A stretch of DNA of 64,000 nucleotides from Rugosibacter aromaticivorans (GTDB lineage Bacteria > Pseudomonadota > Gammaproteobacteria > Burkholderiales > Rhodocyclaceae): the NCBI RefSeq assembly GCF_000934545.1, contig NZ_CP010554.1, positions 558,001 to 622,000 on the forward strand. The letters are read 5' to 3'. The translations under genes were made by a program, and so were the position numbers. Of this stretch, positions 14,429 to 35,632 are shown piece by piece (the stretch's first letter is position 1; each line of letters starts with the position of its first letter). The notes under the pieces were generated by a model. It was not told the DNA's origin, searched no databases, and was given only the letters and a program-made list of their open reading frames with translations.

Positions 14429-17078
<2,650 letters not shown>

Positions 17079-18282: not shown

Positions 18283-18344
18283 ATCGATTAAATAAGTAAA
18301 TTGTAGAAATATAATTTGTTTTACAATTAATTGTTCCTTGCTTA
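18283..18344 (+). promoter_or_regulatory. 62-bp regulatory box, copy upstream of the yeiH-like gene
   Basis: A very AT-rich box reading from ATCGATTAAATAAGTA through AGAAATATAATTTGTTTTAC to TTGTTCCTTGCTTA. It matches 57 of 62 positions with the complement of 33559-33620, and in both places it points toward the first gene of an operon. It contains a dyad TTGTA-N16-TACAA, which would suit a LysR-type dimer. A plausible promoter follows: TTGCTT at 18338-18343 and TATTAC about 16 bases later. Confidence 0.6.
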
Positions 18345-18462
18345 AAGTTATTCCAAATCTATTACTTGAAAAACATGGAATCTCTACCCTTCCTGCCATC
18401 TCAGCAAAAATGCCCCAACAAGCCATGTATGTTCTCCATGTATGTTCTGTGAGAGCCTCCTG

Positions 18463-19527
18463 ATGGCCGCTATAGGGCAATATTTCCCTGGCCTTGCACT
18501 GTCCGGCAGTCTTGCTGCACTATCCATCGAACTTGGCAAACTGAATTGGTTGCAGGCCAACGGGATCAGCGTGCTGACGTTGGCCATCCTGCTTGGTATG
18601 GTAGTGGGCAACACGGTGTTTCCGCGGATCGCCATGGCAAGTGCAGCGGGCGTGACGTTTTCTCAACAAAATCTGCTGCGACTCGGCATCGTCCTGTATG
18701 GCTTTCGTTTGACTTTTCAGGATATTGCATATGTCGGCATCAGCGGGGTGGTGATCGATGCGATGGTTTTAAGCAGTACCTTCGCCATGGCATGGCTGCT
18801 CGGCACCAAGGTATTCAAGCTCGATCAAAAAACCATATTGCTGATTGGTGTTGGCAGCTCCATTTGTGGAGCCGCTGCGGTAATGGCAACCCAGTCAGTT
18901 GTTCGTGCCCGAACCGAACAAGCAACCGTGGCTGTATCAACAGTCATCGTTTTTGGAACTCTTGCCTTATTCTTATACCCGGCAATGTATTACATTAACG
19001 AACAATGGCAATTGTTATCTCTCTCGCCAATTGTATCAGGAATATATATCGGCGCCACAGTGCATGAAGTGGCACAAGTGGCAGCTGCCGCATCTTCGAT
19101 AAGTGCAGAGATAACTAATACAGCGGTTATCACAAAAATGATACGCGTGATGATGTTGGGGCCGTTCCTATTGATCTTGTCAGTTTATTTGTCCCGGAGA
19201 CAATCACGCGAAACTATCAATATGACCAGTAGATATGATACTCACAAAACAAATGGCCGTATTACCATTCCATGGTTCGCGTTAGGTTTCTCTGTAGTTA
19301 TCGCTTTGAATTCGCTTGCCATTTTGCCTGGTGCAATCGTGTCAGGTATTACTGAGATCGATACGTTTCTATTGGCAATGGCAATGGTTGCCCTAGGTCT
19401 GTCGAGTCACATTTCGACAATTCGCCGCGCCGGAGTTATGCCATTCTTATTTGCCGCATCGCTATTTGTCTGGTTAATTTTTGGTGGCCTTGCAGTAACT
19501 ATAGGTGTGACGACATGGCTTGGCTGA
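18463..19527 (+). CDS. yeiH: YeiH/PSE-family putative sulfate (sulfite) exporter
   Basis: A 354-residue inner-membrane protein with about ten hydrophobic segments, of the UPF0324/YeiH family (putative sulfate exporters). Family features are FPGLALSGSLAAL at the start, ISVLTLAILLGMVVGN, RLGIVLYGFRLT, SSICGAAAVMA near residues 132-142 and GATVHEVAQVAAA near 190-202. In taurine- and sulfonate-degrading bacteria related proteins export sulfite or sulfate. The start at 18463 has GAGAG upstream; an in-frame ATG exists seven codons earlier. It is the first gene of the plus-strand arm and directly follows the 62-bp box. Base composition is clearly richer in A+T than the ICE backbone. Substrate is inferred from family. 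Confidence 0.8.
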   Translation: MAAIGQYFPGLALSGSLAALSIELGKLNWLQANGISVLTLAILLGMVVGNTVFPRIAMASAAGVTFSQQNLLRLGIVLYGFRLTFQDIAYVGISGVVIDAMVLSSTFAMAWLLGTKVFKLDQKTILLIGVGSSICGAAAVMATQSVVRARTEQATVAVSTVIVFGTLALFLYPAMYYINEQWQLLSLSPIVSGIYIGATVHEVAQVAAAASSISAEITNTAVITKMIRVMMLGPFLLILSVYLSRRQSRETINMTSRYDTHKTNGRITIPWFALGFSVVIALNSLAILPGAIVSGITEIDTFLLAMAMVALGLSSHISTIRRAGVMPFLFAASLFVWLIFGGLAVTIGVTTWLG

Positions 19528-19682
19528 TCTTTTCTTAAACAAATCTTGGCTGGATAAGTGTATTGTGATATCGTAAATTAGTATTTTTCGAGTGTCAAAA
19601 AGGAGGAAACATAAACGAAAACCGGACAGATCACGAATCCGCAACACTTCAAAGTACATCATAAAAAAGAGGAGGATGAAAT

Positions 19683-20984
19683 ATGAAACTGAAGCCATTG
19701 TGTTATCGATTTGCCAACAGCCCTGTTGCATGTCCCCTATTTTCAAGCGCAGCTATTTGCCTTGCTTTATTATTCTTTTCCCCATTTGTTGTTAGTGCAG
19801 CGGAGCTACCCCCTGGAACTGTCATCAATGCTTCGAATATTGATACTTTTAAAAATGATACTTTTGAACAGCATCCGATATCGGAATTGATTCCTCCGTC
19901 GATCGAAAGGTTGGTTCGTGAATTCAAGTTAAACGTAAAGATCAAGCACTCGGAAAAATATCCACTTGATTCTTCACTAGTTAGCCTGACGAAAAAGTAC
20001 AGCCCTTCTGTTCGGCTTAACGAAAAGACCAAACAGATTGAAAATTATGTAGCAGGGATCGCTTTCCCAGATATTCGCTCAGACGATCCCAATGCGGGAT
20101 ACAAGGTGATGTGGAATAACTTTCTTTTATATTCACTTATCAATAATGGTGAAATTGTCAATTCTTCACTTTTGTTGATCGATCAGAAAAAAGGGTTGGA
20201 GCAAGTTCAGTCATTCAAGTTCTCCGTTGTGCCTATGGTAGGACGTGTCGATGAACCTCATGTCATTGGGAAAGGCGATATCGCCAAACGTGAGCTTCTT
20301 GTTTTTACCGAACCTTATGATCTTCGGGGTTTGGGTACATTCACTATCCGCTACATGGATGGGCGTCCAGATGAAACTTCTGCATATCTGAAGAGCGTGC
20401 GACGAATACGCAGGCTAACTGGTGGTGCCTGGATGGATCCTGTTGGTGGAGCAGATTATCTTTATGATGATATTAACGGATTTAATGCGCATCCCTCTTG
20501 GTATAAGGATTTTCGTTACATCAAGCGGAAATGGATATTGGGACTTGTTCTGCGGACACCCCCTCGCGTTAAGGGGGCAGCGACACTCGCGGACGAGTTT
20601 ACCGGGGTGGACCTTAAGAATCCCCCCTATTGGAATCCAACGATGGACTGGGAGCCTGTTGAGGTGGATGTAGTTGAAGCTATTACTCCGCCAGAGCACC
20701 CTTACAGCAAAAAGATATATTACATCTCAGTAGGCATACCTGGTTTTGCAACGATGGCTGAGTTTTATAACAAGAAAGGGACGCTGTGGAAGATTGATCT
20801 CCTTGGGTCTAGAGCCAAATTTGTTGATACCAAGGGTCGCAAAATACCAGCCGCTGGTTACATGAATTATGTGATTGATATTTTGCGAGGTCATGCCAGC
20901 GTAACTTTTGGTTGGGACGTTACACATATAGATCTTAAGCCAGAAGACGTTAGTATTGACAAGTTATTGGAGGTGGTCAAATGA
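19683..20984 (+). CDS. DUF1329 family outer-membrane-associated protein
   Basis: A 433-residue protein with an N-terminal signal sequence (hydrophobic AAICLALLFFSPFVVSA, cleavage likely near residue 39 before AELPPG), then the DUF1329 domain, which has the LolA/LolB-like beta fold. Family marks are LPPGTVINASNID at the mature N-terminus, YDLRGLGTFTIRYMD and SVRRIRRLTGG in the middle. A strong AGAGGAGGATG ribosome-binding site precedes the ATG. It overlaps the next gene (DUF1302) by ATGA. DUF1329, DUF1302, YCF48-like and MMPL genes form a recurrent set next to genes for breakdown of hydrophobic compounds; the exact role is not established. Confidence 0.85.
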   Translation: MKLKPLCYRFANSPVACPLFSSAAICLALLFFSPFVVSAAELPPGTVINASNIDTFKNDTFEQHPISELIPPSIERLVREFKLNVKIKHSEKYPLDSSLVSLTKKYSPSVRLNEKTKQIENYVAGIAFPDIRSDDPNAGYKVMWNNFLLYSLINNGEIVNSSLLLIDQKKGLEQVQSFKFSVVPMVGRVDEPHVIGKGDIAKRELLVFTEPYDLRGLGTFTIRYMDGRPDETSAYLKSVRRIRRLTGGAWMDPVGGADYLYDDINGFNAHPSWYKDFRYIKRKWILGLVLRTPPRVKGAATLADEFTGVDLKNPPYWNPTMDWEPVEVDVVEAITPPEHPYSKKIYYISVGIPGFATMAEFYNKKGTLWKIDLLGSRAKFVDTKGRKIPAAGYMNYVIDILRGHASVTFGWDVTHIDLKPEDVSIDKLLEVVK

Positions 20985-22702
20985 ATTGGTTAAAACTTTC
21001 ATTTCGAGTTGATAAGAATAGCCTAGGCAGCGCGGAAGACTTCGATGGGTCTTCTCCACCCCTTCTACTCATTATCGGCAGGTGGTGCCTAACTCCGTTT
21101 ATTTTCATTGTCGGCTCATGGGCAAATATTGCTACCGCTGAGGAGTATGACACGCCTTCATTCGCTGATAGTTCAATTGTGGCTAGTGATGGCACTAGTT
21201 CCCCTAGAACAACCATCGATGCACAATTACATGGATACTTTCGTCAGTATATCGGTTGGAACCTTGAGGATCATCCCGAGCCTGATGGAAAGGGTGGGCA
21301 GATTGATGGTGCAGGAGATATCTCTATCATGCGAAGTGTAGTCAAGCTGGATGGTGATATTAATTTTGGAAAGGTGAAACTCAAAGCTGTTGGAAGATTT
21401 AGTAGTGAGCATAAAACGCCGTACTTGAGGAGACTTGAGAATGCAGCAATAGCGCAAGGAGGGAGAGCGTTTGTTAATGATCAATATAACGAAGCTGAAA
21501 TCCGAGAGTTTTACGCCGCATTCCCTTTGACTGAGAGGATAAAGGTTCAGCTTGGGAAACAACAGATGCCATGGGGCGAGGCTGATTTTTTCCACGCGAC
21601 CGATGTCGTGCAAGGATACGACACTAGATGGCGATCAACATTAGAGCGTGAGAATGAGGAGACGCGTAATCCTACTTGGCTTGCCAATATAGAGATCGCA
21701 TTTCCTGAGGTGGATGGTAATCTGCAGCTAATCTATGGCCCAGGCTGGGGCTCCGGTAGAAAAGTAGTCAATAATATTGACCTAGCTGGTGGTAGATTTG
21801 CAGGAACTGGCTATCATGGCGTTGATAGCACGCTATTTACACCATATAACTATCACCAATCTAGTGGCGATACAAGTGACGATACTTGGGGTTTTCGCTG
21901 GACTGGTAATGCTCCAGGCAGAGCGATTAGCTACTCATTATTGTACTACCATGGGTTAAATTATGACCCTATCGTTAATTCAGTCGCAACGGATTTTCCT
22001 AGTTTCAAATCAGCAAAGGCTTACGGTCAAGTTCCCGCGAATAATTTCGGGGAGATTATTTATCCAAGAATGGATACTTATGGTGCGACATTCAATGCAG
22101 ATTTGCCAGATATCGACACGGTGTTGCGTGGTGAGCTCGCCTATCAGCCTAAACATCAATATAACATCGGTAGCAGCTTCTGTGCCCTTGTGGGCCCACC
22201 TCCAGCGTGTGCTGTCGTTCCTGGTATTGGAGGTATTCTAGAAAAAAGTACAGTTCGGATGATGCTGGGCTTTGATAATACAGCCAAATGGACTCAAAGC
22301 GTGTTTGGTACAGCGAGGCCAGGGTTGTGGACTTTAGAAGTTTTTGATAGATGGATAACAGGGTTTAAAGACAGTGACGATATTGTCGAATTATTTGGAT
22401 ACTCCGCTAAGGCTCGAGAGCACCAGACGTTTCTCACTTCCACGCTGACTCTAAACTACTTGAATGATCGACTAAAACCAAGTTTAGCACTTTTGTGGGA
22501 CACACACTACGGAGACACCATTTGGGTTGGTGGTCTCGATTATGCCATTGGTGATAAATGGCGTATTTATAGTGAGATTTCACTCAATTTCCCAAGAGGT
22601 CCCACAAAAAAATCAGCAAATGATATAACAGATCGCACTCATCTGTTGAGTACTGGTGCAGACAACAGCCAGCTTCTGATCCGTGCAACGTATCAATTTT
22701 GA
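20981..22702 (+). CDS. DUF1302 family outer-membrane beta-barrel protein
   Basis: A 573-residue protein. A hydrophobic export segment lies unusually far in (residues about 29-52, ending ANIATAEE), after a hydrophilic leader of 25 residues. The mature part is a beta-barrel-like DUF1302 domain and ends in YQF, with the terminal aromatic residue typical of outer-membrane proteins. Marks include LHGYFRQYIGWNL, KVQLGKQQMPWGEADFFHATDVV and a Tyr-rich middle part. Start and DUF1329 stop overlap, so the two are translationally coupled. Likely a channel for the substrate of this cluster. The true start could be an internal codon nearer the signal sequence. Confidence 0.82.
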   Translation: MNWLKLSFRVDKNSLGSAEDFDGSSPPLLLIIGRWCLTPFIFIVGSWANIATAEEYDTPSFADSSIVASDGTSSPRTTIDAQLHGYFRQYIGWNLEDHPEPDGKGGQIDGAGDISIMRSVVKLDGDINFGKVKLKAVGRFSSEHKTPYLRRLENAAIAQGGRAFVNDQYNEAEIREFYAAFPLTERIKVQLGKQQMPWGEADFFHATDVVQGYDTRWRSTLERENEETRNPTWLANIEIAFPEVDGNLQLIYGPGWGSGRKVVNNIDLAGGRFAGTGYHGVDSTLFTPYNYHQSSGDTSDDTWGFRWTGNAPGRAISYSLLYYHGLNYDPIVNSVATDFPSFKSAKAYGQVPANNFGEIIYPRMDTYGATFNADLPDIDTVLRGELAYQPKHQYNIGSSFCALVGPPPACAVVPGIGGILEKSTVRMMLGFDNTAKWTQSVFGTARPGLWTLEVFDRWITGFKDSDDIVELFGYSAKAREHQTFLTSTLTLNYLNDRLKPSLALLWDTHYGDTIWVGGLDYAIGDKWRIYSEISLNFPRGPTKKSANDITDRTHLLSTGADNSQLLIRATYQF

Positions 22703-23137
22703 ATTTTACTTAGATGCTTTCTGTTTGTCCTAAAAAGGCAAATGGTACTTGTGAGTTAACAAGCCTTTTGGTTAGCTGTGACAAATCCTGTAGCTTGCAA
22801 TGCAGGTTCGCGCTGTTGGATTTTCTTAAAAAAGGGGTCTAGCGGAAATGATGAATCAATTGTGCTTGCAAAGTTTTAAGGGCTCGCTGTTTGCCACATC
22901 TTTCTGAAGGGTGAGTCAGATTTAAATATAAATATCGAGACTCTCGCTTCTGACTTCTAGTAAGTCGACTACCGTGAAAGAGTCAATATTTCACTAGGTG
23001 GAGAAGATGTTTTGTCACTGTCTAAAATGCAATCCATCGTTTGCTTCCTGTGAGGGAAGGTCAAAAGCTACAATATCATTTTCGATACTCAAGTTTTCCA
23101 CGATGGGGTTATATATAAGAGCAAGAAAGCAGAGTGC
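22703..23137. other. 435-base gap between DUF1302 and YCF48-like genes
   Basis: No gene seen. It contains a nested hairpin (AAAAGGC...CTTGT-GAGTTA-ACAAG...CCTTTT, about 22732-22770) that could weaken read-through. It also contains a dyad GTGAAA-N9-TTTCAC at 22974-22994 and a TATATA element shortly before the next gene, so a second promoter is possible. Confidence 0.35.
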
Positions 23138-24250
23138 ATGAACAAGAAAATGATACAAGTCGTAGAGGGTGTCGTCTCTCTGGCTATCGTGGCGTCTTTA
23201 TATCTGGTGGGCGTCTACGTCAAGCCCAAAGAAAAAATTTTTCATCTAGAGCATCCATCCATAGAAAGACGTGATCGATTTTTTGGGATCGCTGAAGCTG
23301 TAGGTAAGCCCGGCATCCTATGGATGGCTGGGAAAGAAGGCAAGATAGTACGCAGCGAGGATGGCGGCCATACTTGGCAAATGCAAGCCTCTGGCACCCG
23401 AGAAAACCTTCAAAGCGTTGCTGCTTGGGATAGTAAACGTGCGGTGGCAGTCGGTAACACAGGTTTGGTCTTAGTCACAGCAGACGGCGGGATTACTTGG
23501 CGAGCCGTGGATTCACCAAAATCAGCGGTCGACAACAAACTGCTTCGAGTTCGTATCGACCCGCAAGGCACAGCCTGGGCGGTAGGCGTCATGGGCACCG
23601 TGCTCACTAGCAGTGATTTTGGCAGGACTTGGGAGCGCAAAGTCCCTGAGCAGGACGTTGCTTGGAATGACGTCAACTTTGACGGGCAAGGTACTGTCTG
23701 GGTCGTTGGTGAGTTTGGCCATGCCATGCATACCACTCAAGTCGGGAGCAAATCCGTGGTTGTAAAAGCAGCCGGCGTGGTGAATCAGATTGGATCAGAT
23801 GCAAGTCAAGGCCTTGGCATAAGTGAAGAGAAGAAGCTTACGCCACCTGCTGGGTGGGTTGGCGTTACGATGCCCACTGACCGTAGCCTGATGACCATAA
23901 ATTTTAGCGATCCCCAGCACGCTGTTGTCGGTGGTGTAGAAGGTACCTTGCTCACGACCAATGATGGTGGTGCAACATGGATCTCTGTGCCGTTAGCCAC
24001 AAAGGAGCACATCCTCGACATGACCTTTGCTGCTGGACACTGGATAGGTGTTGGCGGACGTGGTTTGTTGCTCAAGGGCATGGCTAATGGAACGCAATGG
24101 GAGGTCGGTCGCGCCCAAGCGGATGACTATGCTTGGCATGCCACAGTAGCAACTTTTCAGGACAAACTTCTGATTGCTGGTGCGACGCTGATTGAGCAGG
24201 ACCTAAAAAACTTGAAGGTTTTCAGTAATGAAGAAGCAGTAGCTGAATAG
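23138..24250 (+). CDS. YCF48/BNR-repeat beta-propeller protein, membrane anchored
   Basis: A 370-residue protein with an N-terminal membrane anchor (residues about 8-27, VEGVVSLAIVASLYLVGVYV) and a seven-bladed-type propeller of YCF48 repeats: GKEGKIVRSEDGGHTW, GNTGLVLVTADGGITW, GVMGTVLTSSDFGRTW and GVEGTLLTTNDGGATW. In the DUF1329/DUF1302/MMPL sets this protein is thought to assist the transporter in the periplasm, by analogy with the assembly role of Ycf48 in photosystem II, but this is not proven. It lies 20 bases before the MMPL transporter gene. Confidence 0.85.
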   Translation: MNKKMIQVVEGVVSLAIVASLYLVGVYVKPKEKIFHLEHPSIERRDRFFGIAEAVGKPGILWMAGKEGKIVRSEDGGHTWQMQASGTRENLQSVAAWDSKRAVAVGNTGLVLVTADGGITWRAVDSPKSAVDNKLLRVRIDPQGTAWAVGVMGTVLTSSDFGRTWERKVPEQDVAWNDVNFDGQGTVWVVGEFGHAMHTTQVGSKSVVVKAAGVVNQIGSDASQGLGISEEKKLTPPAGWVGVTMPTDRSLMTINFSDPQHAVVGGVEGTLLTTNDGGATWISVPLATKEHILDMTFAAGHWIGVGGRGLLLKGMANGTQWEVGRAQADDYAWHATVATFQDKLLIAGATLIEQDLKNLKVFSNEEAVAE

Positions 24251-24270
24251 CAACCACTGGAGCCTATTAA

Positions 24271-26613
24271 ATGATTGAGTTTTTGGCAAATAAGCTATTT
24301 CCCAAACGCGTGGCCATTATGGTTGCCATTATCGTTGCCTCGGCTATATTGGGAGTGATCTCCCTACGTCTGGAGATTACGACACATTTTACAGATTTGT
24401 TACCTGGGCATCACCCCTATGTTGAGGTGCATGAGAAATACAAAGGTAGTTTTGGTGGCGCTAATGTCGTGACCATTATGGTCGAACCAGAGAAGGGGGA
24501 CATTTTCCAACCGAAAGTGCTGAACAAGATACGCGCTATCACGCAAGGACTGCTGTATGTCGATGCAGTGAATCAATATCAGGTTACTTCGTTGGCTGCC
24601 AAGAAGCTTAAGGATGTACGTGGCTCGACTTATGGCATAGAAAGCATCCCCTTGATGTGGCCAGATGTGCCTAATGATCAACAAGGAATTGAAATGCTGC
24701 GCCGTGCGGTTGTTTCCAATCCACTTGTGTATGGCGCTTATGTCTCGCGTGACCTCAAGGCCGGTTTGATCACGGTGGATTTTATTGATAGATTGCTGGA
24801 TGTCGAAAAAGTCTACACCCAGATTAATCAGCTGATTGAAAAGAATACTGAACCCGGTATCCGAATAAGCGTTGTCGGTGAGCCCATGCTGCATGGCACA
24901 GTATTCAGCTATCTACCTGAGACAGTCGAGATATCGATATTTATCATTTTGGTAATGGGTGTCATTTTGTTTTTTACTATGCGCACCTGGCGTGGAACCT
25001 TGCTGCCGCTTTTTACTGCGGGGGTTTCAGCGCTGATTTCGCTTGGCATCATTCATCTAGTTGGTTTTAACTTTGACCCGCTAATCATGGTGATTGTATT
25101 TTTGATCTCAGCACGAGCTATCTCACATTCAGTACAGTTTTGCGCTGCATTTGACGATGAGCGAATGCTTGGTGTGAAATCCTCTCATGAGGCTGCACGG
25201 CTAACCTTTATCAACTTATTTCGCCCCTCAGTATTGGGTTTATTGGTAGACATTGGCAGTATTCTGGTTGTAACTCTGACACCGATTCCGCTGCTGCAAA
25301 AAGCCGCTATTATTGGCGCCATCTGGCTGACTAGCCTGCTAGTGACTGCCTGTATTATGGTGCCTATTGCTTTGTCATGGGTGAAAGCGCCAAGAGAGCG
25401 CGTTGCACTGAAGTGGGATATTACGCAGTACCTGCTGAAATTGTGTCGTTTGTTTGCGCGGTTGTCGACTCATAAAGTAAGTGCTATCGCTATTTTGGTG
25501 GCTAGTCTTTTGGCGCTGTTGCTAGCGGGGGAACAAGCGTCGGAAGTCACTGTCGGTGATGCAAATCCAGGATCCCCACTGCTGTGGCCTAGCTCAAAAT
25601 ACAACAAGGACTGGGGTGCGATCAATCACCGCTTCCGAGGAAGCGAGCAGATGTTTTTGGTAGTAAAGGGTGATGCATATGATGCACTCAAACAACCGGC
25701 TGTTTTGGATAATATTATTCGTCTGCAGCGGTTTGTAGAGGCACAGCCGCAGATTGGTGGCTCGATTTCCGTAGCTGATGTGATTGCGCCGACCAATGCT
25801 GTGGTGCACGAGGGGAATCCGCATTTTGAAGAACTCGGTAAAAATGCTACTGATAACGGCGAACTTTTGCACTTGGTGACCCAAGGTGCGGAGCCTGGCG
25901 ACATGGATCGTTTTATTGATGCTAATTCAAAAGTAGGCGCAGTAACCATTTTTTTCCGGGATCACCAAGGGGATACTATCCGCACAGCAGTTTCACGCAT
26001 CAGGGAGTACATTGAAAAAAATCCAATTTCGGGTGCGCACTATGAATTAGCGGGAGGGCTGATAGGAGTACTGGCCGCCATTAACGAGATCATTTTTGCC
26101 GATCAGATAAAGAGTATTGCGCTAGCACTTATGGTGCTTTTTGTTTTCTGCGCAATAAGTTATCGATCGGTTCAAGCAGGACTGTTTTTTTTACCGCTGA
26201 TCCTGCTTTCCAACGTAGTGACTTTCGCGTTCATGAAGTGGATGGGTATCGGCATGAATATCAACACGCTACCTATTGCCGCGCTCGGTATTGGCTTAGG
26301 TGTCGATTATGCCTTTTATATCGTCGATCGAATAAAGGAGCGATTTAATGTGACCAAAGATCTGCGAGGCAGCATTACCTTCAGCCTGGAAACTGCCGGA
26401 CGAGGTGTATTGATTACTGGCTTGACTATGGTTTCCAGTGTCTTTCTTTGGTACCTAATGTCTTCGCTACGCTTTCAAGCGGAAATGGGATTACTCATTG
26501 CTTTATGGATGACTATCTCTGCTACTGCCGCGCTATTAGTAATTCCTTCAATGATCTATCTTATGAAGCCTAATTTTGTAATTGGTGAAAGGCTGATGCC
26601 ATTTATAGAATGA
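24271..26613 (+). CDS. MMPL/RND-superfamily transporter
   Basis: A 780-residue inner-membrane transporter with the two-fold RND plan. TM1 is at residues about 13-32, then a large periplasmic loop starting THFTDLLPGHHPYVEVHEKYKGSFGG; TM2-6 lie near 215-365. TM7 is near 395-415, a second loop follows, and TM8-12 are near 610-770, including ALGIGLGVDYAFYIVDRIKERF, the MMPL-type signature with the acidic residue in the membrane. Related transporters move lipids or hydrophobic molecules. With the DUF1302 barrel, DUF1329 and YCF48 proteins it could form an envelope-spanning route for the substrate; direction is not deducible. Confidence 0.88.
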   Translation: MIEFLANKLFPKRVAIMVAIIVASAILGVISLRLEITTHFTDLLPGHHPYVEVHEKYKGSFGGANVVTIMVEPEKGDIFQPKVLNKIRAITQGLLYVDAVNQYQVTSLAAKKLKDVRGSTYGIESIPLMWPDVPNDQQGIEMLRRAVVSNPLVYGAYVSRDLKAGLITVDFIDRLLDVEKVYTQINQLIEKNTEPGIRISVVGEPMLHGTVFSYLPETVEISIFIILVMGVILFFTMRTWRGTLLPLFTAGVSALISLGIIHLVGFNFDPLIMVIVFLISARAISHSVQFCAAFDDERMLGVKSSHEAARLTFINLFRPSVLGLLVDIGSILVVTLTPIPLLQKAAIIGAIWLTSLLVTACIMVPIALSWVKAPRERVALKWDITQYLLKLCRLFARLSTHKVSAIAILVASLLALLLAGEQASEVTVGDANPGSPLLWPSSKYNKDWGAINHRFRGSEQMFLVVKGDAYDALKQPAVLDNIIRLQRFVEAQPQIGGSISVADVIAPTNAVVHEGNPHFEELGKNATDNGELLHLVTQGAEPGDMDRFIDANSKVGAVTIFFRDHQGDTIRTAVSRIREYIEKNPISGAHYELAGGLIGVLAAINEIIFADQIKSIALALMVLFVFCAISYRSVQAGLFFLPLILLSNVVTFAFMKWMGIGMNINTLPIAALGIGLGVDYAFYIVDRIKERFNVTKDLRGSITFSLETAGRGVLITGLTMVSSVFLWYLMSSLRFQAEMGLLIALWMTISATAALLVIPSMIYLMKPNFVIGERLMPFIE

Positions 26614-27739: not shown

Positions 27740-29063
27740 GTGTCCATGGCCTCATGGGGCGGCTTTTGATTTGGCGGATCATCCCGTCCAGTTCACGTTG
27801 CCCCTTGCTGCCTTCTTTCATTTCTGCAAATATCGCCCCCACACTGGCGCGTTTTTTCAGCACGGCGCGAATAGCGGCCCGAGTCAGCGTCTTAGGGTTA
27901 AAGAAGTCTGCCGGTCGGTGCGTGCGCTGATAAATGCCTCCCATTACCGGAAGCAGTTTGGGATCGGACATTGCATCTTCCATCAATTGAACTACTAGCG
28001 CTCCTGGCCCGGCGCCGCGGCTCATCTGCACGCCCATGAACAATATGTCAATCGATTCAAGATCGCGATCACGTTCCCAGGCGTCCATGATGGCCTGCTC
28101 GCTACCGGGGTTATCAAGTGAACGCTTGATAGCGGAGGCAAGCTTTATGGCGTGGTGCACCGCATCGCCGATTCCCTGTGCCAGCACAGGGTCTTTGAAG
28201 TGTCCGGAATCACCCACCAGCGCCCAGCCTGGACCAACGCTACGGCGCATGTAAGATGGCATTTTAAGACGACTATAGACCCGATCAGTCTGTTCGCCTT
28301 TAAGGTAAGCCGCAGTTCGATCAAAGGAGGACAGTTGAGCCTTCAAAGCACTATCGGGGTCATTTTTAAATTTATCGAGATCGGCATTGACCGGAAAACA
28401 GCCGACGAGCACCTGGTTTTCACCTACCGGGAAAATCAGATATCCACACGGATCGGGTTTGTTGTCATCGAAACAAAAAAATCCCACATCGTTTGGGAGC
28501 CCTTCAGCAAGGCGGTAGTAACTGAAATAGCAGAAGCGATCACTTGGAATATCCAGCCAGGTTTCTGCCTGTACGGCGCGAGCCACCATGGATGTTACGC
28601 CATCCGCACCAACGACGAAGCGGGCGCGCACCTCACCATCAGCAGTCCGCACGCCAATCACGCGCTGGCCGTCATCAAGAACATCTGTCACCCGTGTATT
28701 GAGCCGAATTTCAGCGCCAGCGCGGCGGGCGGCATCAAGCAGAGCATTGTCCAGCACACTACGGCGAATACAATAGGACGGATCAGGGAAGGGAAAGGTG
28801 GCAGTTATTCCATTCTTAATTTCCAGTTTCAAGCTTAATAGCGCCGGGGCATGCGACGACATCAGTTGGGCATAATCAACACCCGTTTGATTGACCAACC
28901 GATCAACGGTGTTGTAGTAAATATTATGCGTAGAAACCGGTTCTTCTTTCAGGTCGTCACGCTCGATTACACATACTTTTACACCCTGTTTGGCGAGGTG
29001 AGCCGCTAAAGTGCTGCCAGCAACTCTGCCACCTACGATGACCACATCAAAGTTATCGCTCAT
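27723..29063 (-). CDS. FAD-dependent monooxygenase-like oxidoreductase
   Basis: A 446-residue flavoprotein of the PHBH/geranylgeranyl-reductase-like superfamily. An N-terminal Rossmann motif VVIVGGRVAGSTLAAHLAKQG (GxGxxG variant with G-R-V in the second part) is followed by the DG motif ARFVVGADGVTSMVARA near 150-165 and the second FAD motif WALVGDSGHFKDPVLAQGIGDA near 275-296. No membrane segment. A hydroxylase acting on the ring product, or an oxidoreductase on a polyketide-like substrate, are both possible. It was probably the last gene of the Rieske operon; an IS4 element now separates it from the rest. Convergent overlap with the reductase gene. Confidence 0.8.
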   Translation of the reverse strand: MSDNFDVVIVGGRVAGSTLAAHLAKQGVKVCVIERDDLKEEPVSTHNIYYNTVDRLVNQTGVDYAQLMSSHAPALLSLKLEIKNGITATFPFPDPSYCIRRSVLDNALLDAARRAGAEIRLNTRVTDVLDDGQRVIGVRTADGEVRARFVVGADGVTSMVARAVQAETWLDIPSDRFCYFSYYRLAEGLPNDVGFFCFDDNKPDPCGYLIFPVGENQVLVGCFPVNADLDKFKNDPDSALKAQLSSFDRTAAYLKGEQTDRVYSRLKMPSYMRRSVGPGWALVGDSGHFKDPVLAQGIGDAVHHAIKLASAIKRSLDNPGSEQAIMDAWERDRDLESIDILFMGVQMSRGAGPGALVVQLMEDAMSDPKLLPVMGGIYQRTHRPADFFNPKTLTRAAIRAVLKKRASVGAIFAEMKEGSKGQRELDGMIRQIKSRPMRPWTLTAKQ

Positions 29064-29130
29064 ACTGTCTCCTGATACTTTTAATGAAAAGATGAAATCT
29101 CACTAGCCCAATTGTAGATAAATCGGAAAA

Positions 29131-30455
29131 CACTAGTGTCCGGTTAAATTGAGACGTACCGACGGCAACGCCAACAATGATAAGGGTTTCAAGCGATTCA
29201 TGGGTGTCCACGATTTGAATTTCATCTTGCGCATTTGCGATCATTCCGGGTTTGGAGAGCTTGGGGTGACGTATGAACGTGGGCAAGACGCTGTTTGCGC
29301 AAGTCATGGAGTATGTGCCGTGGAAGACCTTCGGGCGCATCATCGACCGTCATGGCGGCGATGCGGGTGTGCGCACTTTGGGTTGCGCCGACCTGTTTCG
29401 CGTGATGGCATTCTCGCAATTGACGTGGCGCGAGTCTTTGCGCGACATCGAGGTCTGCCTGGCATCCAATCAATCCAAGCTGTTTCACATGGGTTTGAGC
29501 AGCATACCCGCACGATCGACTCTCTCGGATGCGCTGAATCAGCGGGACTGGCACATTTATCACGCGCTTGCGATGCGCTTGATCGTGCGAGCCAGGAACC
29601 TCTACGCCGCAGAACCAACGGGACTGGAACTCGATGCGACGGTCTACGCGCTGGACTCGACCACCATCGACTTGTGTTTGAGCCTGTTCGATTGGGCTCC
29701 GTTTCGCAGCACCAAGGCGGCGGTGAAGATGCACACGCTGCTGGACTTGCGCGGGGCGATCCCGGCCTTCATCCACATCAGCGATGGCAAGATGGGCGAT
29801 GTCAAAGTGCTCGACATCTTGCCCATCGAAGCGGGTGCGTTTTACGTGATGGATCGGGGTTACGTGGACTTCGACCGGCTCTTCAAGATACATCAGGCCG
29901 GCGCGTTCTTTGTGACCCGCGCCAAACGCGGCATGGATGCCCATCGGGTTTACTCGACCAAGACCGACCGAAGCACCGGTGTGATCTGCGATCAGGCGAT
30001 TCGGCTCAACGGGTTTTACGTGTCCAAGGACTACCCAGAGCATTTGCGGCGCATCCGATTCAAAGACCCCGATTCGGGCAAAACGTTGGTGTTTCTGACC
30101 AACAACACAACGTTGCCGCCGTTGACCATTGCCGCGCTGTACAAGAGCCGCTGGCAGGTAGAGCTGTTCTTCAAATGGATCAAGCAACACCTGCGCATCA
30201 AGCGCTTTCTGGGAACCAGCGAGAACGCGGTGAAGACGCAAATCTGGTGCGCCGTTTCCACCTACGTGCTGATCGCTATCGTCAAGAAAGAGCTCCATCT
30301 CAATGCCTCGCTCTACACTTTGTTACAGATATTGTCGGTCTCGATTTTCGAGAAAACCCATATTTCATGCGCCTTGCAGCCAGACACTACTGGAGTCATT
30401 GCGCCATTACCCAATAACCAAATGATTCTATTTGATTTTTAACCGGACACTAGTG
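29131..30455 (+). mobile_element. complete IS4-family element
   Basis: A 1325-base element with perfect 18-bp terminal inverted repeats (CACTAGTGTCCGGTTAAA at 29131-29148 and its complement at 30438-30455) and a 9-bp target duplication ATCGGAAAA at 29122-29130 and 30456-30464. It carries one intact transposase gene. The clean ends and intact gene suggest recent insertion into the minus-strand catabolic operon. Confidence 0.93.
29273..30442 (+). CDS. IS4-family transposase
   Basis: A 389-residue DDE transposase. An N-terminal DUF4372 domain (LFAQVMEYVPWKTFGRIIDRHGGD) is followed by the DDE core: YALDSTTIDLCLSLFDWA (first Asp), GAFYVMDRGYVDFDRLF (second Asp) and the Y-(2)-R-(3)-E-(6)-K signature YKSRWQVELFFKWIKQHLRIK with the catalytic Glu. 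Length is full for the group. The reading frame spans nearly the whole element and ends within the right inverted repeat region. Confidence 0.95.
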   Translation: MNVGKTLFAQVMEYVPWKTFGRIIDRHGGDAGVRTLGCADLFRVMAFSQLTWRESLRDIEVCLASNQSKLFHMGLSSIPARSTLSDALNQRDWHIYHALAMRLIVRARNLYAAEPTGLELDATVYALDSTTIDLCLSLFDWAPFRSTKAAVKMHTLLDLRGAIPAFIHISDGKMGDVKVLDILPIEAGAFYVMDRGYVDFDRLFKIHQAGAFFVTRAKRGMDAHRVYSTKTDRSTGVICDQAIRLNGFYVSKDYPEHLRRIRFKDPDSGKTLVFLTNNTTLPPLTIAALYKSRWQVELFFKWIKQHLRIKRFLGTSENAVKTQIWCAVSTYVLIAIVKKELHLNASLYTLLQILSVSIFEKTHISCALQPDTTGVIAPLPNNQMILFDF

Positions 30456-30478
30456 ATCGGAAAAGTGTCGAGAAATAT

Positions 30479-31453
30479 TTAGCCTACCGGCTCGAAGAAA
30501 TCCGATACCGTTGACGATGGTGAAACAATTCCTTCGGTAACCAGATGTGACAAGATTGCGGTTAGCGCATTTTTGTTTGCATCCAGTCCATATTTTGTCG
30601 GGAAAATGCCTAGCTTCTCGAGGAATCCGATATCAAGTCCCATGTGAATACTTTCTTTCCGGCTGCGGGTTTCTTCATCATAGAGCGCTCTCGCCTTCTT
30701 GAACGCGGCATAAAGCGCGGCTGGGAGCCCCGGATGCTTTTCGACGACCTTGGTAGTCAATGTTATGACGGTATTGATCGGGAAAATCCCGGTTTGAGCG
30801 ACCGCAGCTGAAATCTGTGCCTGTGGATCATCAAATAACGGCCCTGTTGTTGCCGTTGCCGGAGCGCCCCCTGATGGAAGCAAAATCGCATCAATCTGCC
30901 CTGTTTGAAGATATTCACCGGCATATATCCCTCCCGGTACAATCGTTTCCGATGTTATGTGGGGTAGACGTTCAATCTTGAAATCACTCGGCCGAAGATA
31001 GGGGAGGCCATTGAAAAATAGATCATCTTCATCTTCAACCCAGATTATTTGTTTTGGGTCTACTTGGTAGTGTGATTTAAGAATCCAGCGAAACCACACC
31101 GCCGGGTTATATCCAAATCCGGCAACCCCTACCCTGCGGCCAACCAAGTCTTTCGGTTCACGGATTCCACTCGCGCGATTAACGGCGACTCCCATTTGAG
31201 GGAAAAAGGAACTGGGAAATACGGGTATTGCAGTGAGCGGCTTGCCCATGCTCCGCGCGATAAGGTAATGCGATAGCGCCTGCTCTCCAATGTCGTAGGA
31301 AATCTTCGTTACCATGTCGGCGAAATATGGCCAGGGCAGCGAGCCAGTATCAGTAAACTCGATATCGTAACCCTCTACGCGAACTGTTCCATCCAACAAG
31401 AACTTGGTGTCATGTCTCCGAGCCACAGGAAAGGTGATTACATTTGAGCCCAT
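30479..31453 (-). CDS. 4,5-dihydroxyphthalate-decarboxylase-like protein (periplasmic-binding-protein fold)
   Basis: A 324-residue protein without signal peptide or lipobox, which argues against a secreted ABC binding protein. The pattern VRVEGYDIEFTDTG, SHYLIARSMGKPLTAIPVFPSSFF, IREPKDLVGRRVGVAGFGYNPAVWFRWIL and IIWVEDEDD follows the 4,5-dihydroxyphthalate decarboxylase (Pht5/OphD) family, cytoplasmic enzymes built on a binding-protein fold. No permease or ATPase gene is nearby. In this operon (alpha, beta, this gene) decarboxylation of a dihydroxylated ring acid would be a logical next step. Activity is inferred; a thiamine-precursor-type binding role cannot be excluded. The gene lies 25 bases after the beta subunit gene. 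Confidence 0.65.
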   Translation of the reverse strand: MGSNVITFPVARRHDTKFLLDGTVRVEGYDIEFTDTGSLPWPYFADMVTKISYDIGEQALSHYLIARSMGKPLTAIPVFPSSFFPQMGVAVNRASGIREPKDLVGRRVGVAGFGYNPAVWFRWILKSHYQVDPKQIIWVEDEDDLFFNGLPYLRPSDFKIERLPHITSETIVPGGIYAGEYLQTGQIDAILLPSGGAPATATTGPLFDDPQAQISAAVAQTGIFPINTVITLTTKVVEKHPGLPAALYAAFKKARALYDEETRSRKESIHMGLDIGFLEKLGIFPTKYGLDANKNALTAILSHLVTEGIVSPSSTVSDFFEPVG

Positions 31454-31478
31454 TTTTTATCCTTAAGTGAAAGCAGCA

Positions 31479-32069
31479 TCAGAACAGAATAGACAGACTG
31501 CGCGGCAGTAAGCGGTGCGCAAAAAGAATCTCGCGGCGTTTAATTAAAAAGCCCTTGGCATGCTCCACGAGCACATCCCGGCGGCTTCCGACAAAGAATG
31601 CCTCGGTGGATTCAAGACGCGATTGAAAAACAAGAAAATTAGACCTGACTTCATATGTGCCATCTTGCTTATCAGAAATCAAAATATTTGTGATAAGCCG
31701 CCGCACACGGGAGCGCGGCTGTTCCGCGTGGGCAAAGTTAGTTGCCAAGCGTTGCACCCGCTTGGCAAGAACACTTTTGCTTTCTTCGAAGATGCGCAGC
31801 CGACCTTCAGAAAATACGTCTTCTTCGGATCGATGGTCCAGTGTTTCGGTTACTGGCGACATATAAACCACGTCTTCCGCCAGCAAGTCGAGCCATTCAT
31901 CGAGCCTCCCCTCGTCAAGAAAAAGAGCCTCCAAGTACAAAAACTTTTCGATCTTGCGTTCAATGTCTGTAGAAATATTGTCATGTGTCATAGGAGCCAC
32001 CACTATTCTTGGTTGTGTTTTCTGTATTGCCGCAGGTTGTTGGGCGATGCTGACCGATATGCCTGTCAC
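31479..32069 (-). CDS. ring-hydroxylating dioxygenase small (beta) subunit
   Basis: A 196-residue SnoaL/NTF2-like protein of the aromatic-ring-hydroxylating dioxygenase beta family. Marks are IEKFLYLEALFLDEGRLDEWLDLLAEDVVYMSPV near residues 37-71 and RVRRLITNI, YEVRSNFLVFQSR and DVLVEHAKGFLIKRREILF later. A 26-residue N-terminal extension precedes the usual start, so translation may begin at MTHDNIS (residue 27); the first ATG, however, overlaps the alpha-subunit stop (ATGA) as in coupled genes. Structural partner of the alpha subunit in an alpha3beta3 oxygenase. Confidence 0.88.
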   Translation of the reverse strand: MTGISVSIAQQPAAIQKTQPRIVVAPMTHDNISTDIERKIEKFLYLEALFLDEGRLDEWLDLLAEDVVYMSPVTETLDHRSEEDVFSEGRLRIFEESKSVLAKRVQRLATNFAHAEQPRSRVRRLITNILISDKQDGTYEVRSNFLVFQSRLESTEAFFVGSRRDVLVEHAKGFLIKRREILFAHRLLPRSLSILF

Positions 32070-33409
32070 GGTTTGCGAGGTGTCGGTGTACCCATAAGCT
32101 GAGCCCAGTATTCATAAAAATTTCTGTTATTTTGGTCAGTATAAAAATCGCCAACCCTGCCCGGCATCCCCTCTGGGGCGCCGTCGGTTTTGCCGTCGTG
32201 GCCGAGTCCCATGCTGTAATCAAACGGCACCCGTTTACTAATCACTCCTGTCGTGGCAGCGGTGATTTGTTCAGTGTTTTCCATATCATCTGCGCCGAAT
32301 GATCCCGCAACCGTCTGCCCGAAAGTGAAATTCTGTCGGGCGATGTCTTTGATGACTTTCGGTGCGCTACGATCAAACAGCATGTTTTCCCAGATTTCCG
32401 ACTCAGTGGCGCTACGCGGGTGCCACACCATCATCAGGCCACCAACAAATGAACCAAAATCGTTGAATGACAAATTTGGGAAAATCGTGCCCACGCCAAT
32501 CGAAAATATTTCCGCCTGCAAGCTCGAAACCCGTTGTTGCAAGACGTTTCTCAACTCTTGAAGATATTCGACAGCCTCTTTGCCGATAGCGTCTGCGATG
32601 TATTTATCACCGTGCCAACGGGCACCAGGTTTCGGAATGTCGATTAACCCATGGCCATTCTCAAAGGCCACTGTAAAGTCGCCGAAATCTTCGTTGCGCA
32701 GGACTGTACCGGGCTCTTGCGAATAGGCGCCAACCTCTAGTGCTCCCCTATGGGTATAGGGAGCATGATAATTATCCCCGGCAAAATTTTCTGCGCCGAG
32801 CTTCCAGTTTCCTGGCACCCTGTAACGCTGCTGACCCGGTATGACTTCCAGCCCGCCCAGCGTTCGCATGGCCATAATATCGAAATACCATTTCACATCG
32901 CCAAGATAATTTGCTAACGATTGTGCCTTTTCGTCCCAGCAGGCGAAATAAAACCCTTGATAAGATTCAACACGCGGACATTCAAAAAGCCCTAACTGTT
33001 CTCGCGGCAAGTTGCCATGGTACGCCTGTTTAAAGAGTGGGACTGCAGCAAGACAGCCATCGCTGGAAAAAGTCCACCCATGATAGGAACACGAGAACGA
33101 CTTTGCGTTGCCATGGTCGACTCGACACAAGCGCATTCCTCTATGGCGGCATGAGTTCAGAAATACACGCACAGCTGATGCCTTGTCACGCCAAACGATT
33201 ACTGGATCAGAGCCAATATAGGTCGTTAGAAAATCTTCTGGGTTCGGGATCTGTGATTCATGCGCAACGAAGACCCAAGTGCGCGTGAATACTCGATCCA
33301 TTTCGACCTGGTAAATTGATTCATCCGAGAAGATTCGCCGATCAATTGTTCCATGGCCCGGGCGAACATTGGCCAGTATTTCCCCGATCAAATCTTCATG
33401 CATACCCAT
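32066..33409 (-). CDS. Rieske ring-hydroxylating dioxygenase large (alpha) subunit
   Basis: A 447-residue oxygenase subunit. The Rieske 2Fe-2S ligands are Cys87, His89, Cys107 and His110 (SCRHRG...CSYHGW). The mononuclear iron site follows in ENFAGDNYHAPYTH with bridging Asp212 and ligands His215 and His220. The family is the alpha/beta class fed directly by a reductase (benzoate, anthranilate, 2-aminobenzenesulfonate type); the substrate is not deducible from motifs. It is the first gene of the minus-strand operon (alpha, beta, decarboxylase-like, then FAD protein beyond an IS). The 62-bp box shared with the yeiH-like gene lies 150 bases upstream, and AGGAGATG precedes the start. Confidence 0.92.
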   Translation of the reverse strand: MGMHEDLIGEILANVRPGHGTIDRRIFSDESIYQVEMDRVFTRTWVFVAHESQIPNPEDFLTTYIGSDPVIVWRDKASAVRVFLNSCRHRGMRLCRVDHGNAKSFSCSYHGWTFSSDGCLAAVPLFKQAYHGNLPREQLGLFECPRVESYQGFYFACWDEKAQSLANYLGDVKWYFDIMAMRTLGGLEVIPGQQRYRVPGNWKLGAENFAGDNYHAPYTHRGALEVGAYSQEPGTVLRNEDFGDFTVAFENGHGLIDIPKPGARWHGDKYIADAIGKEAVEYLQELRNVLQQRVSSLQAEIFSIGVGTIFPNLSFNDFGSFVGGLMMVWHPRSATESEIWENMLFDRSAPKVIKDIARQNFTFGQTVAGSFGADDMENTEQITAATTGVISKRVPFDYSMGLGHDGKTDGAPEGMPGRVGDFYTDQNNRNFYEYWAQLMGTPTPRKP

Positions 33410-33558
33410 TTGCCATCTCCTCCAATCGAACCCAATGATATTCTGGATTTTTATCTTACGGCTTATGCGATGTTAATAACTTATTTTCAGTAACAAGACA
33501 AATTCAAGAGCCACCCGCAACAGTTAATTTTTAGCGACGATCTTAACAATATTTATAG

Positions 33559-33620
33559 TAAGCAAGGAACAGTTAATTGTAAAACAAATTATATTTCTAT
33601 ACTCTACTTAATTAATCGAT
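33559..33620 (-). promoter_or_regulatory. 62-bp regulatory box, copy upstream of the Rieske operon
   Basis: Read on the minus strand this is the second copy of the box at 18283-18344 (57 of 62 positions identical, including a 27-base unbroken core from TAGAAATATAA to ACAATTAA). It faces the Rieske alpha gene just as the other copy faces yeiH. A promoter-like TTGCTT sits at its 3' end. Common control by the nearby LysR-type protein is inferred. Confidence 0.6.
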
Positions 33621-33697
33621 ACCGATACGCGAGTTCAAATTCGAAGCATTGATGACAGTTCCAGGGGTTGGCTCCGCTGCACTAACAACAAATAAGC

Positions 33698-34662
33698 GGA
33701 TTCAACTCTGAAGTGCAACTTTTGTAAGCGAATTTAGGTGGCGAGCTGCGTTAACATCGAGCCACTTAAACGACCAAGTAAAAGGAACACAGATGAAGCA
33801 TCTATACACAGCTCGACCATGAACAACGATACCAGATTTCTGGGTTACATAAAGCAGGGTGTAACCAAACACAAATTGCAGACGAAATGGGCGTGCACAA
33901 ATCCACGATTTCACGAGAGTTCAGGTGAAACAAAGGGCGGCGTGGCTGGAGGCCGAAACAAGCTCAATCAATGCGTGATGAGCGCAAGCAAGCTTGCATC
34001 AACGGCAAGCAATTCTCACCGCATAAATGGGCCGAAGTTGAAAGATTGACCCGCAAAGACCTCAGCCCGGAACAGGTCGCTAATCGACTTGAGCTGGAAG
34101 GAAGCTTGCTGATCAGCCCCGAAACAATTTACCTGCACATCTCTGCGGACAAGCGGAATGGCGGAGACCTGCACCAACATCTACGAAGCCAGAAACCGCG
34201 CCGCAAGCGTTATGCAAGCGGGCAAGAACGACGTGGCACGATCAAGAACAGTGTCAGCATTGATGATCGCCCTGACATCGTTGCTCACAAAACACGCATG
34301 GGTGACTAGGAAAGCGATACCGTCATCGGCAAGAACCACAAGGGCGGGTTTGGTCACGCTGGCTGACCGTGTGTCTCGTTATGTGTTGGCGGGGCACATA
34401 CGCAACAAGCATGCCGCTGGTGTCACGGCTGTGACGACGCGCTTGCTGAGCCCCCACAAGAATAAATGCCACACCATCACATTCGACAACGGCAAAGAAT
34501 TTGCGGAGCATGAACTCATGGAGGTAGACCGACTCAGCCACCGTCCACGCAAAGTGCTTGGATTTAGGACGCCTCATGAGGTATTCTTCTGCGTGGAAGT
34601 TCTTTACACCAAGCAACCACTAGTGGTTGCACTTCTAAGGTTGCACTTCTAAATTGGATTCA
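33698..34662 (+). pseudogene. decayed IS30-family element and transposase
   Basis: Three frames together read as an IS30 transposase: YQISGLHKAGCNQTQIADEMGVHKSTISRE (HTH, about 33829-33920), then RKDLSPEQVANRLELEG and PETIYLHI, then GLVTLADRVSRYVLAGHI and TFDNGKEFAEHE (DDE core). Frameshifts and a TAG at about 34307 split them, and the C-terminal Glu region is altered. Related ends GGATTCAACTCTGAAGTGCAAC (33698) and GTTGCACTTCTAAATTGGATT (34640, complementary) mark the element. Not functional. It separates the LysR gene from the Rieske operon promoter region. Confidence 0.75.
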
Positions 34663-34684
34663 CGATAGATTAAAGGGGAGTTGC

Positions 34685-35632
34685 ATGCACCTTACCCTCC
34701 GCCAGTTACAGATTTTTATTGCCATTGGTCAGACCGGTGGCACGACAATGGCAGCGAAAAGCATATCGCTGTCGCAATCAGCAGTCAGCGCAGCACTCAG
34801 TGAGCTTGAGAACCTGCTCGATACACAGGTGTTTGATCGTATCGGAAACCGTCTGGTGCTAAACGATAACGGCCGCTTGCTGATGTCGCAGGCGCGCTTG
34901 CTCCTTGATGGTGCTCGGAGTATCGAGAGCCAATTTTCAACATCTGGCGAACCTGGTGCATTCTTACTCAAGATAGGAGCCAGTACCACGATCGGTAATT
35001 ATGTAATACCTGCGCTGATTGCGCGCTTCCGTGAAAGCGTACCCGCCGCGCGTGTCGAAGTTCATATTGGTAACACCAGCGAAATCGCCGCAGAGGTCGC
35101 CAACTTCAAAGTCGACATCGGTTTTATTGAAGGCCCTTGTCACGAATCGGAGCTGGATGTAATACCCTGGTTAGTGGATGAACTGGTAATCGTAAGCTCA
35201 CCGAATCATCCACTCGCTCGGCAAAAACTTTCGCGAAAGATCACATTAAAAAATCTACGGGAAGCCGAATGGCTACTTCGAGAGCCAGGCTCTGGAACAC
35301 GCGAGATCGTAGAGCAGGTATTGCTGCCATACTTGCACCACCTCAACGAAGGAATGATTTTTGGAAGCGCCGGGGCGATCAAGCGCGCCGTTGCCGAAAA
35401 CATGGGGCTAAGCTGTCTCTCGCGATGGGTCGTTGCCGATATGCTTGCATCCAAACGCCTTGTCGTTCTACACACGCCACTACCGCAATTGTCTCGAAGG
35501 TTTTATCTTATCTGCCATAAAAAGAAATTTTTATCTGCGGGGCTGGAACGATTCATTCACCATTGCCAGTCATCGGCACCGGTAAATGAATCGTTCCAGT
35601 ACCCTCAAGGCAGATACCGCATTGGCGACTGA
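34685..35632 (+). CDS. LysR-family regulator resembling YeiE
   Basis: A 315-residue LysR-type regulator. A winged HTH lies at residues 1-60 (LTLRQLQIFIAIGQTGGTTMAAKSISLSQSAVSAALSELE) and an effector domain follows, with ASTTIGNYVIPALIARFRE, VDIGFIEGPCHESEL and WLLREPGSGTREIVEQVLLP. These blocks match what I recall of Escherichia coli YeiE, the neighbour of YeiH, linked to sulfite stress. The last 20 residues (from about SSAPVNESF) look foreign: the natural end seems to be near RFIHHC and the frame runs into an inverted repeat and IS3 sequence. AGGGGAG precedes the start. Likely regulator of both arms of the cluster; effector unproven. Confidence 0.85.
   Translation: MHLTLRQLQIFIAIGQTGGTTMAAKSISLSQSAVSAALSELENLLDTQVFDRIGNRLVLNDNGRLLMSQARLLLDGARSIESQFSTSGEPGAFLLKIGASTTIGNYVIPALIARFRESVPAARVEVHIGNTSEIAAEVANFKVDIGFIEGPCHESELDVIPWLVDELVIVSSPNHPLARQKLSRKITLKNLREAEWLLREPGSGTREIVEQVLLPYLHHLNEGMIFGSAGAIKRAVAENMGLSCLSRWVVADMLASKRLVVLHTPLPQLSRRFYLICHKKKFLSAGLERFIHHCQSSAPVNESFQYPQGRYRIGD
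35543..35599. repeat. 19-bp inverted repeat at the 3' end of the LysR gene
   Basis: CTGGAACGATTCATTCACC at 35543-35561 pairs with 35581-35599 with a single mismatch, around a 19-base loop. It overlaps the last sense codons of the regulator (LERFIHH). It may be a duplication made during insertion of the adjoining IS3 fragment or act as a terminator-like hairpin. Confidence 0.55.

Follow-up and report, generated by a model that had tools for sequence, protein, structure and literature searches.

Copies of a yeiE-yeiH intergenic sequence precede a YeiH-type exporter gene and a Rieske oxygenase operon in Rugosibacter aromaticivorans

An AT-rich gene block of Rugosibacter aromaticivorans combines genes for a YeiH-type exporter and a YeiE-type LysR regulator with those of a two-subunit Rieske oxygenase. 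The block lies at 18442-35632 of the window, the 64,000-nucleotide stretch of contig NZ_CP010554.1 (positions 558,001 to 622,000) analyzed here. A 63-bp sequence, designated X, is found upstream of yeiH, and a second copy, X', is found upstream of the Rieske alpha gene. Since X lies between divergent, adjacent yeiE and yeiH genes in another genome of the genus (G004), it is interpreted as the operator/promoter region that serves the yeiE-yeiH pair. We lean slightly towards the reading that a mobile yeiE-yeiH sulfite module was rewired, such that YeiE acts through X and X' to control both yeiH and an oxygenase operon whose substrate releases sulfite. Judged from gene arrangement, the most likely interpretation is that a YeiE-type regulator governs yeiH and the oxygenase jointly. 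Sulfite release by the oxygenase would follow from such joint control, and G004 gives it better support than the window does.

The proposed circuit begins with YeiE, presumed to be a sulfite sensor, which would recognize X, formerly the intergenic operator/promoter of yeiE-yeiH and now duplicated. One copy would drive yeiH and probably also the downstream Ame-like envelope genes and the reductase gene. X', in the position of the divergent target of yeiE, would drive the alpha, beta and decarboxylase-like genes, and perhaps drove the gene for a monooxygenase-like flavin adenine dinucleotide (FAD) protein before an IS4-family element inserted. The oxygenase may attack a hydrophobic aromatic compound with a sulfonate or other oxidized sulfur group, yielding sulfite. 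Sulfite would then activate YeiE, the oxygenase and YeiH would rise together, and turnover and detoxification would stay in step. A bolder form of this proposal, which we give somewhat less than an even chance, is that a sulfite sensor has become a catabolic regulator. The product sulfite, and not the aromatic substrate, would induce aryl desulfonation, and the yeiE-yeiH operator would have been moved in front of Rieske operons that are not related to one another, possibly on more than one occasion in one genus. If true, one operator ties sulfite release to sulfite detoxification in a testable circuit, and a catabolic role is added to YeiE, assigned in the literature consulted to sulfite stress and sulfur metabolism. 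X could also be used as a tag for aryl sulfonate pathways with oxygenases that are unrecognizable by sequence.

Copies of X in the host genome

X (18282..18344, plus strand) and X' (33559..33621, minus strand) form an inverted pair (I1) with 92% identity. They are oriented alike relative to their genes, X ending 98 nt before the yeiH start and X' 150 nt before the alpha start. A sigma70-like hexamer pair with a 17-nt spacer begins within each copy: TTTACA-17-TAAAGT at 18320-18348 and TTTACA-17-TACTAT at 33583-33555. These are the only two copies in the host genome (second copy E 3.6e-20, next match E 1.34), and no match to the X' region was found in the plasmids searched. If a degenerate insertion sequence (IS) between alpha and yeiE is set aside, X' sits between these two genes and faces alpha. 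By position, alpha occupies the divergent target place that yeiH holds in G004. Immediately 5' of the window yeiE, the sequence is similar to the start of the G004 intergenic region as far as CTATCG, beyond which the two diverge. X was also considered as a mobile repeat. This was thought unlikely, as there are two copies in each of two genomes and X coincides with the yeiE-yeiH intergenic region. The first-pass annotation of the window missed the I1 pair, though the region it described starts at 18283, within one base of it.

The host (G000) has a second, chromosomal yeiE-yeiH pair. Its intergenic region holds an X-like stretch of 50 nt with a score of 33, compared with 27 for the best of 500 shuffles (0/500 reach it). 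A weaker X-like stretch is present in the chromosomal yeiE-yeiH intergenic region of genome G043, where 1/500 shuffles reach the score.

A parallel arrangement in G004

Contig C51 of G004 carries, in order, an arylsulfatase-like gene, a sulfatase-modifying (FGE) gene, X, a gene for an aromatic-acid transporter of the major facilitator superfamily (MFS), BenA/AntA-like alpha and beta genes, a TauD-family gene, a TauE/SafE gene, yeiE, X, yeiH, and a second BenA-like alpha/beta pair. The X copy between the divergent yeiE and yeiH genes lies 14 nt from the yeiE start, and the second alpha/beta pair follows yeiH by 128 nt. The other copy precedes the run of MFS, alpha, beta and TauD-like genes, with the arylsulfatase-like, FGE and TauE/SafE genes within the same 16 kb. 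This copy was probably derived from a yeiE-yeiH region, because it holds more of the yeiH leader (a 153-bp match at 82%) and because the 17 nt upstream of it are identical, by eye, to the reverse complement of the window yeiE start. The taurine dioxygenase match in this cluster (300.5 bits) is just below the cut-off of 313, and the BenA matches (475 and 444 bits) are well below theirs of 781.

Salmonella has the same combination of a YeiE-type LysR protein and YeiH. According to the available text of PMC12880088, Salmonella YeiE activates yeiH upon sulfite, and yeiH confers sulfite resistance. G004 keeps the two genes divergent around one control region. The window departs from this arrangement: 15 kb separates yeiE from yeiH, and the intergenic sequence occurs in copies upstream of yeiH and upstream of the Rieske operon.

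Novosphingobium resinovorum SA1 is a degrader of an aryl sulfonate, 4-aminobenzenesulfonate (PMC5632844). Its plasmid pSA3 also resembles the window in that a YeiH-family gene lies next to genes for a Rieske oxygenase of two subunits. The alpha/beta/MFS set of pSA3 is 48/52/44% identical to that of G004. It differs from the window in that alpha and the exporter are only 30% and 29% identical to their window counterparts and no LysR gene is annotated alongside. A search of 298 genomes in the family to which G449 (Sphingobium phenoxybenzoativorans) belongs recovered twelve relatives of the SA1 alpha; within about 8 kb, or as far as the contig extends, 0/12 have a match to YeiH/PSE, an SA1-type MFS transporter, TauD or TauE. 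Among open-licence papers, none was found that joins a sulfate exporter with a ring-hydroxylating dioxygenase, and YeiE and Rieske proteins appear together only in a survey of E. coli regulators.

The regulator and the exporter

The yeiH gene (18442..19527, plus strand) encodes a predicted exporter of the putative sulfate exporter (PSE) type. Its product exceeds the curated cut-off of TIGR00698 over the full length (336.7 bits, cut-off 232.6) and matches PF03601. A YeiH match reaching E 1e-60 occurs in 6 of 81 genomes searched, the host included; outside the host, the best is that of G004.

The yeiE product (34685..35632, plus strand) is above the cut-off of NF008095 and that of the PRK10837 subfamily (341.2 bits versus 281). 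It is below the cut-off of the YeiE equivalog model NF040889 (381.2 versus 480 bits). Three stretches of the effector domain, TIGNY, EGPCH and GSGTRE, are identical to those of YeiE structures 8sbh and 7erp; the identity concerns the sequence stretches only, and the residues preceding the first differ (ASTTIGNY versus ASSTIGNY). A third YeiE structure, 8sbf, differs from the window protein in the first two stretches. Among open-licence papers, none dealing with how YeiE contacts sulfite was found.

Between the window and G004, YeiH is 90% identical and YeiE is 87% identical over 296 residues. The ratios of nonsynonymous to synonymous substitution (dN/dS) are 0.21 for yeiH and 0.28 for yeiE. 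Such low ratios despite the second pair in the host suggest that the window genes have probably been kept for some function.

The oxygenase and its relatives

The Rieske alpha (32066..33409; PF00355, PF00848) and beta (31479..32069; PF00866) genes are both on the minus strand. The alpha residues that we take to be metal ligands fall in invariant columns of an alignment of three sequences (A1). Alpha scored 327 bits with the HcaE model, 176 with BenA and 153.5 with AntA, all far below cut-off, and it is 30-35% identical to the G004 and SA1 alphas. A gene for a ferredoxin/FAD/NAD reductase of the BenC kind (26735..27739, plus strand) gave 315 bits with NF040810, below the cut-off of 430, and no separate ferredoxin gene was found among the island reading frames scanned. 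A gene for an FAD monooxygenase-like protein (27723..29063, minus strand; PF01494) has distant matches to halogenases and geranylgeranyl reductase, and a cluster search with it returned distant relatives only.

The nearest alpha relatives are actinobacterial (Rhodococcus, Gordonia and Janibacter; loci L009, L010 and L067), with 48% identity in alpha and 48-50% in beta, but these sets lack yeiH. At L009 and L010 the pair is accompanied by genes for a short-chain dehydrogenase/reductase (SDR), a hydrolase, an extradiol dioxygenase and a ferredoxin. Closely related alpha/beta pairs occur on actinobacterial plasmids and contigs (L009, L010, L067-L076), several from isolates of oil-polluted soil. 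Within the class, 8/369 genomes, the host included, have an alpha match at E 1e-60, the best other at 40%. A single-sequence pattern search of species-genome contigs found no close alpha relatives. An alignment query of these contigs recovered 442, of which the best 80 were examined together with 1.40 Mb of surrounding DNA (at least 20 kb at 44/80 loci). A tree built by a quick method from 98 rows placed the window alpha in a group of 24 rows with support of 99; its join to 11 actinobacterial rows has support of 81 and long branches. The sets searched yielded no other copy of the island as a whole. In the host genome (2.93 Mb, single contig) the alpha query gave 25 matches, several covering the Rieske part only, and on this ground the host appears to degrade polycyclic aromatics.

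The decarboxylase-like protein

The last gene of the oxygenase run (30479..31453, minus strand) encodes a protein of a divergent subfamily related to dihydroxyphthalate decarboxylase (PDB 9jp7, E 2e-26). It resembles 4,5-dihydroxyphthalate decarboxylase in family and length, and its relatives are found near ring-dioxygenase genes. However, the family histidines in the RxFxH and FPIxH motifs are replaced by Q and T in the window protein and in L148. Both are histidines in 7/7 other rows of alignment A2, which holds 9 of 24 matches, and in 9jp7. A search of 40 genomes found a match in 11, the host included, with one close homolog (51%) and the next at 33%. The close homolog, from Centralia_MAG_294 (G439), is missing the same two histidines. 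With these residues absent from both proteins, the window protein should not be taken as evidence of phthalate-type chemistry. The phthalate pathway of Pseudomonas PTH10 was considered as a model and set aside, since decarboxylation there works otherwise according to the accessible part of PMC6362003.

Contig C2 of Centralia_MAG_294 (L177, L178) encodes an acyl-CoA-dehydrogenase-like protein, Rieske alpha and beta, the decarboxylase-like protein, a DUF1329 protein, HpaB and a BphC-type dioxygenase. It is the best homologous cluster and, by gene content, represents an uncharacterized pathway whose core is common to the window.

Envelope genes

Downstream of yeiH, four plus-strand genes encode a DUF1329 protein (AmeB-like, 19683..20984, PF07044), a DUF1302 protein (AmeA-like, 20981..22702, PF06980), a YCF48-like protein (AmeC-like, 23138..24250, PF14870) and an MMPL transporter of the resistance-nodulation-division (RND) type (AmeD-like, 24271..26613, PF03176), the last 50% identical to a plasmid-encoded MMPL protein of Aromatoleum EbN1. 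Together they contain all families of the AmeABCD set of Castellaniella defragrans: DUF1302, DUF1329, COG4447/YCF48-like and an RND transporter of the MMPL/HAE3 kind. In that organism, the available part of PMC6394551 reports, AmeABCD affects tolerance to apolar monoterpenes. By analogy, the family match suggests that the window substrate is hydrophobic. Unlike the Castellaniella set, the window genes are in a different order and are linked to a Rieske oxygenase and yeiH, and the HAE3 likeness is by family only.

Evidence against the rewired circuit

Several observations weigh against control of the oxygenase by YeiE through X'. The main ground for caution is a 55-nt fragment of the DUF1329 gene (33639..33693, minus strand) that adjoins X' and is 96% identical to 19784-19838 (inverted pair I2). 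This fragment duplicates the 5' part of the gene and, by its sequence, is a rearrangement trace. It indicates that the junction is rearranged, and X' may be a by-product. The promoter-like hexamers are suggestive at most, since a scan found 1 site in the yeiH region where 0.7 are expected by chance and 3 in the alpha region where 0.8 are expected, which proves little. Of the four X copies in the window and G004, those of the same genome differ at 5/63 positions and those of different genomes at 7-9. Clustering by genome fits separate duplications or concerted change, so it does not demonstrate shared ancestral wiring. X was not found in 7/8 other genomes of the genus searched, and the X match in G039 is not significant (28/500 shuffles reach the score). 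In G039 (L201, 1617-8319) the yeiE and yeiH matches are also separated, by 4.8 kb. The G004 parallel is itself limited: the host has no relative of the G004 TauD at E 1e-20, the G004 assembly has 90 contigs and is 91% complete, and C51 ends at 59.5 kb with the cluster reaching the contig end.

The enzymes also argue against it. From its model scores alpha is not of the benzoate/anthranilate class (class IB) and is unlike the G004 and SA1 alphas. The tree places it among loci whose function is unproven, and no row has a checked function. None of the 80 alpha loci (best 80 of 442 relatives) has a YeiH/PSE match in the surrounding DNA examined; DUF1329, DUF1302 and YCF48 matches of at least 50 bits are likewise found at 0/80 and an MMPL match at 1/80. 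Neither yeiH nor yeiE is present in the 38.6 kb around the Centralia run of alpha, beta, decarboxylase-like and DUF1329 genes.

The first-pass annotation had proposed a class IB oxygenase that releases sulfite for sensing by YeiE and export by YeiH, and an alpha phylogeny as a check. The tree gave a well-supported group but no substrate. Class IB fits the BenC-like reductase only, since alpha scores best with HcaE and lower with BenA, both far below cut-off. The decarboxylase-like protein retained its family but lost the two histidines. The annotation had named absence of yeiH/yeiE from other copies of the cluster as refuting, and yeiH is missing at all 80 alpha loci examined and in the Centralia cluster. 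The link to sulfite gained from the intergenic sequence, copied before Rieske operons in both the host and G004, which share a genus, with the G004 copy beside TauD-like, TauE/SafE and sulfatase-like genes; it lost from the class and grouping of alpha and the missing TauD relative. Overall the proposal is partly supported, being strengthened on regulation and weakened on the enzyme class and the decarboxylase.

Alternative interpretations

The alternative that survives best, though we consider it unlikely, is that a carboxylated or plain hydrophobic aromatic compound is degraded. The yeiH and yeiE genes would then have come along as passengers with a mobile module for sulfite defence, and X' would be a functionless scar of an inverted duplication. 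The DUF1329 fragment beside X' fits a scar. The Centralia cluster, which has HpaB- and BphC-type genes and lacks yeiH, and the SDR, hydrolase and extradiol genes beside the nearest alpha relatives are consistent with passengers, as are plasmid LysR-yeiH pairs with no Rieske genes nearby. In one of these, Acidovorax carolinensis pACP3.2 (L183, 6843-12573), a divergent LysR-yeiH pair is followed by a YncE-family gene and genes for a molybdopterin oxidoreductase, cytochrome c and a high-potential iron-sulfur protein, and the region looks like a mobile island for sulfite oxidation and export. Against this alternative, X precedes Rieske operons in two genomes although the operons are not homologous, and rearrangement in the window does not explain the second G004 copy. 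Passengers would also not be expected to show the low dN/dS of yeiE and yeiH in a host with another pair.

It is improbable that the substrate is a sulfur heterocycle or an oxidation product of one, of the dibenzothiophene type, from which the decarboxylase-like protein frees sulfite as a desulfinase while the oxygenase and FAD protein act earlier. The desulfinase DszB probably shares the binding-protein-like fold of the decarboxylase-like family. The lost histidines, shared with the only close homolog, may signal a different chemistry, and the host is rich in Rieske genes. However, a PDB sequence search with the decarboxylase-like protein gave no desulfinase match up to E 10, and the G004 stretches examined gave no match to such a gene. 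In addition, the available text of PMC8557817 indicates that Rhodococcus IGTS8 encodes a YeiH protein that was undetected in its proteome on dibenzothiophene.

Least probable is that the anion moved by YeiH is a different one, for example an intermediate that is an aromatic acid or a sulfonate, and that YeiE responds to this compound instead of sulfite: the shortfall with the YeiE equivalog model would allow it, as would the YeiH mechanism, which PMC12880088 leaves to future work, but the three effector-domain stretches shared with 8sbh and 7erp and the TauE/SafE gene of the G004 island argue otherwise.

Composition of the block and mobile elements

The gene inventory of the first-pass annotation was confirmed by family models across 18442-35632: yeiH, DUF1329, DUF1302, YCF48, MMPL, the BenC-like reductase, the FAD monooxygenase-like and decarboxylase-like proteins, Rieske beta and alpha, and the YeiE-like LysR. 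Its AT-rich composition also holds, with 43-54% GC in 2-kb windows compared with 53-65% in the remainder of the window. The genes of the single block that it described are in place, but two elements that split the block were overlooked. An IS4-family transposase gene (29273..30442, plus strand; above the NF033592 cut-off) separates the FAD gene from the alpha, beta and decarboxylase-like run. A degenerate element with imperfect terminal repeats (pair I7) and a broken transposase, presumably IS30-like, lies between alpha and yeiE (33700..34659, no strand assigned). As to placement inside an integrative and conjugative element, the window encodes a phage-type integrase and a DUF3363 protein whose relaxase match is sub-threshold, which together do not demonstrate a complete element.

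To its left the block is flanked by IS21-type genes, to its right by an IS3-type transposase. At 15987-18166 two istA-like IS21 genes, alike by eye, stand in tandem, and the second, which seems 5'-truncated, adjoins X. An IS4-related fragment also lies directly behind the second alpha/beta pair near the G004 contig end (L198, 5268-5408).

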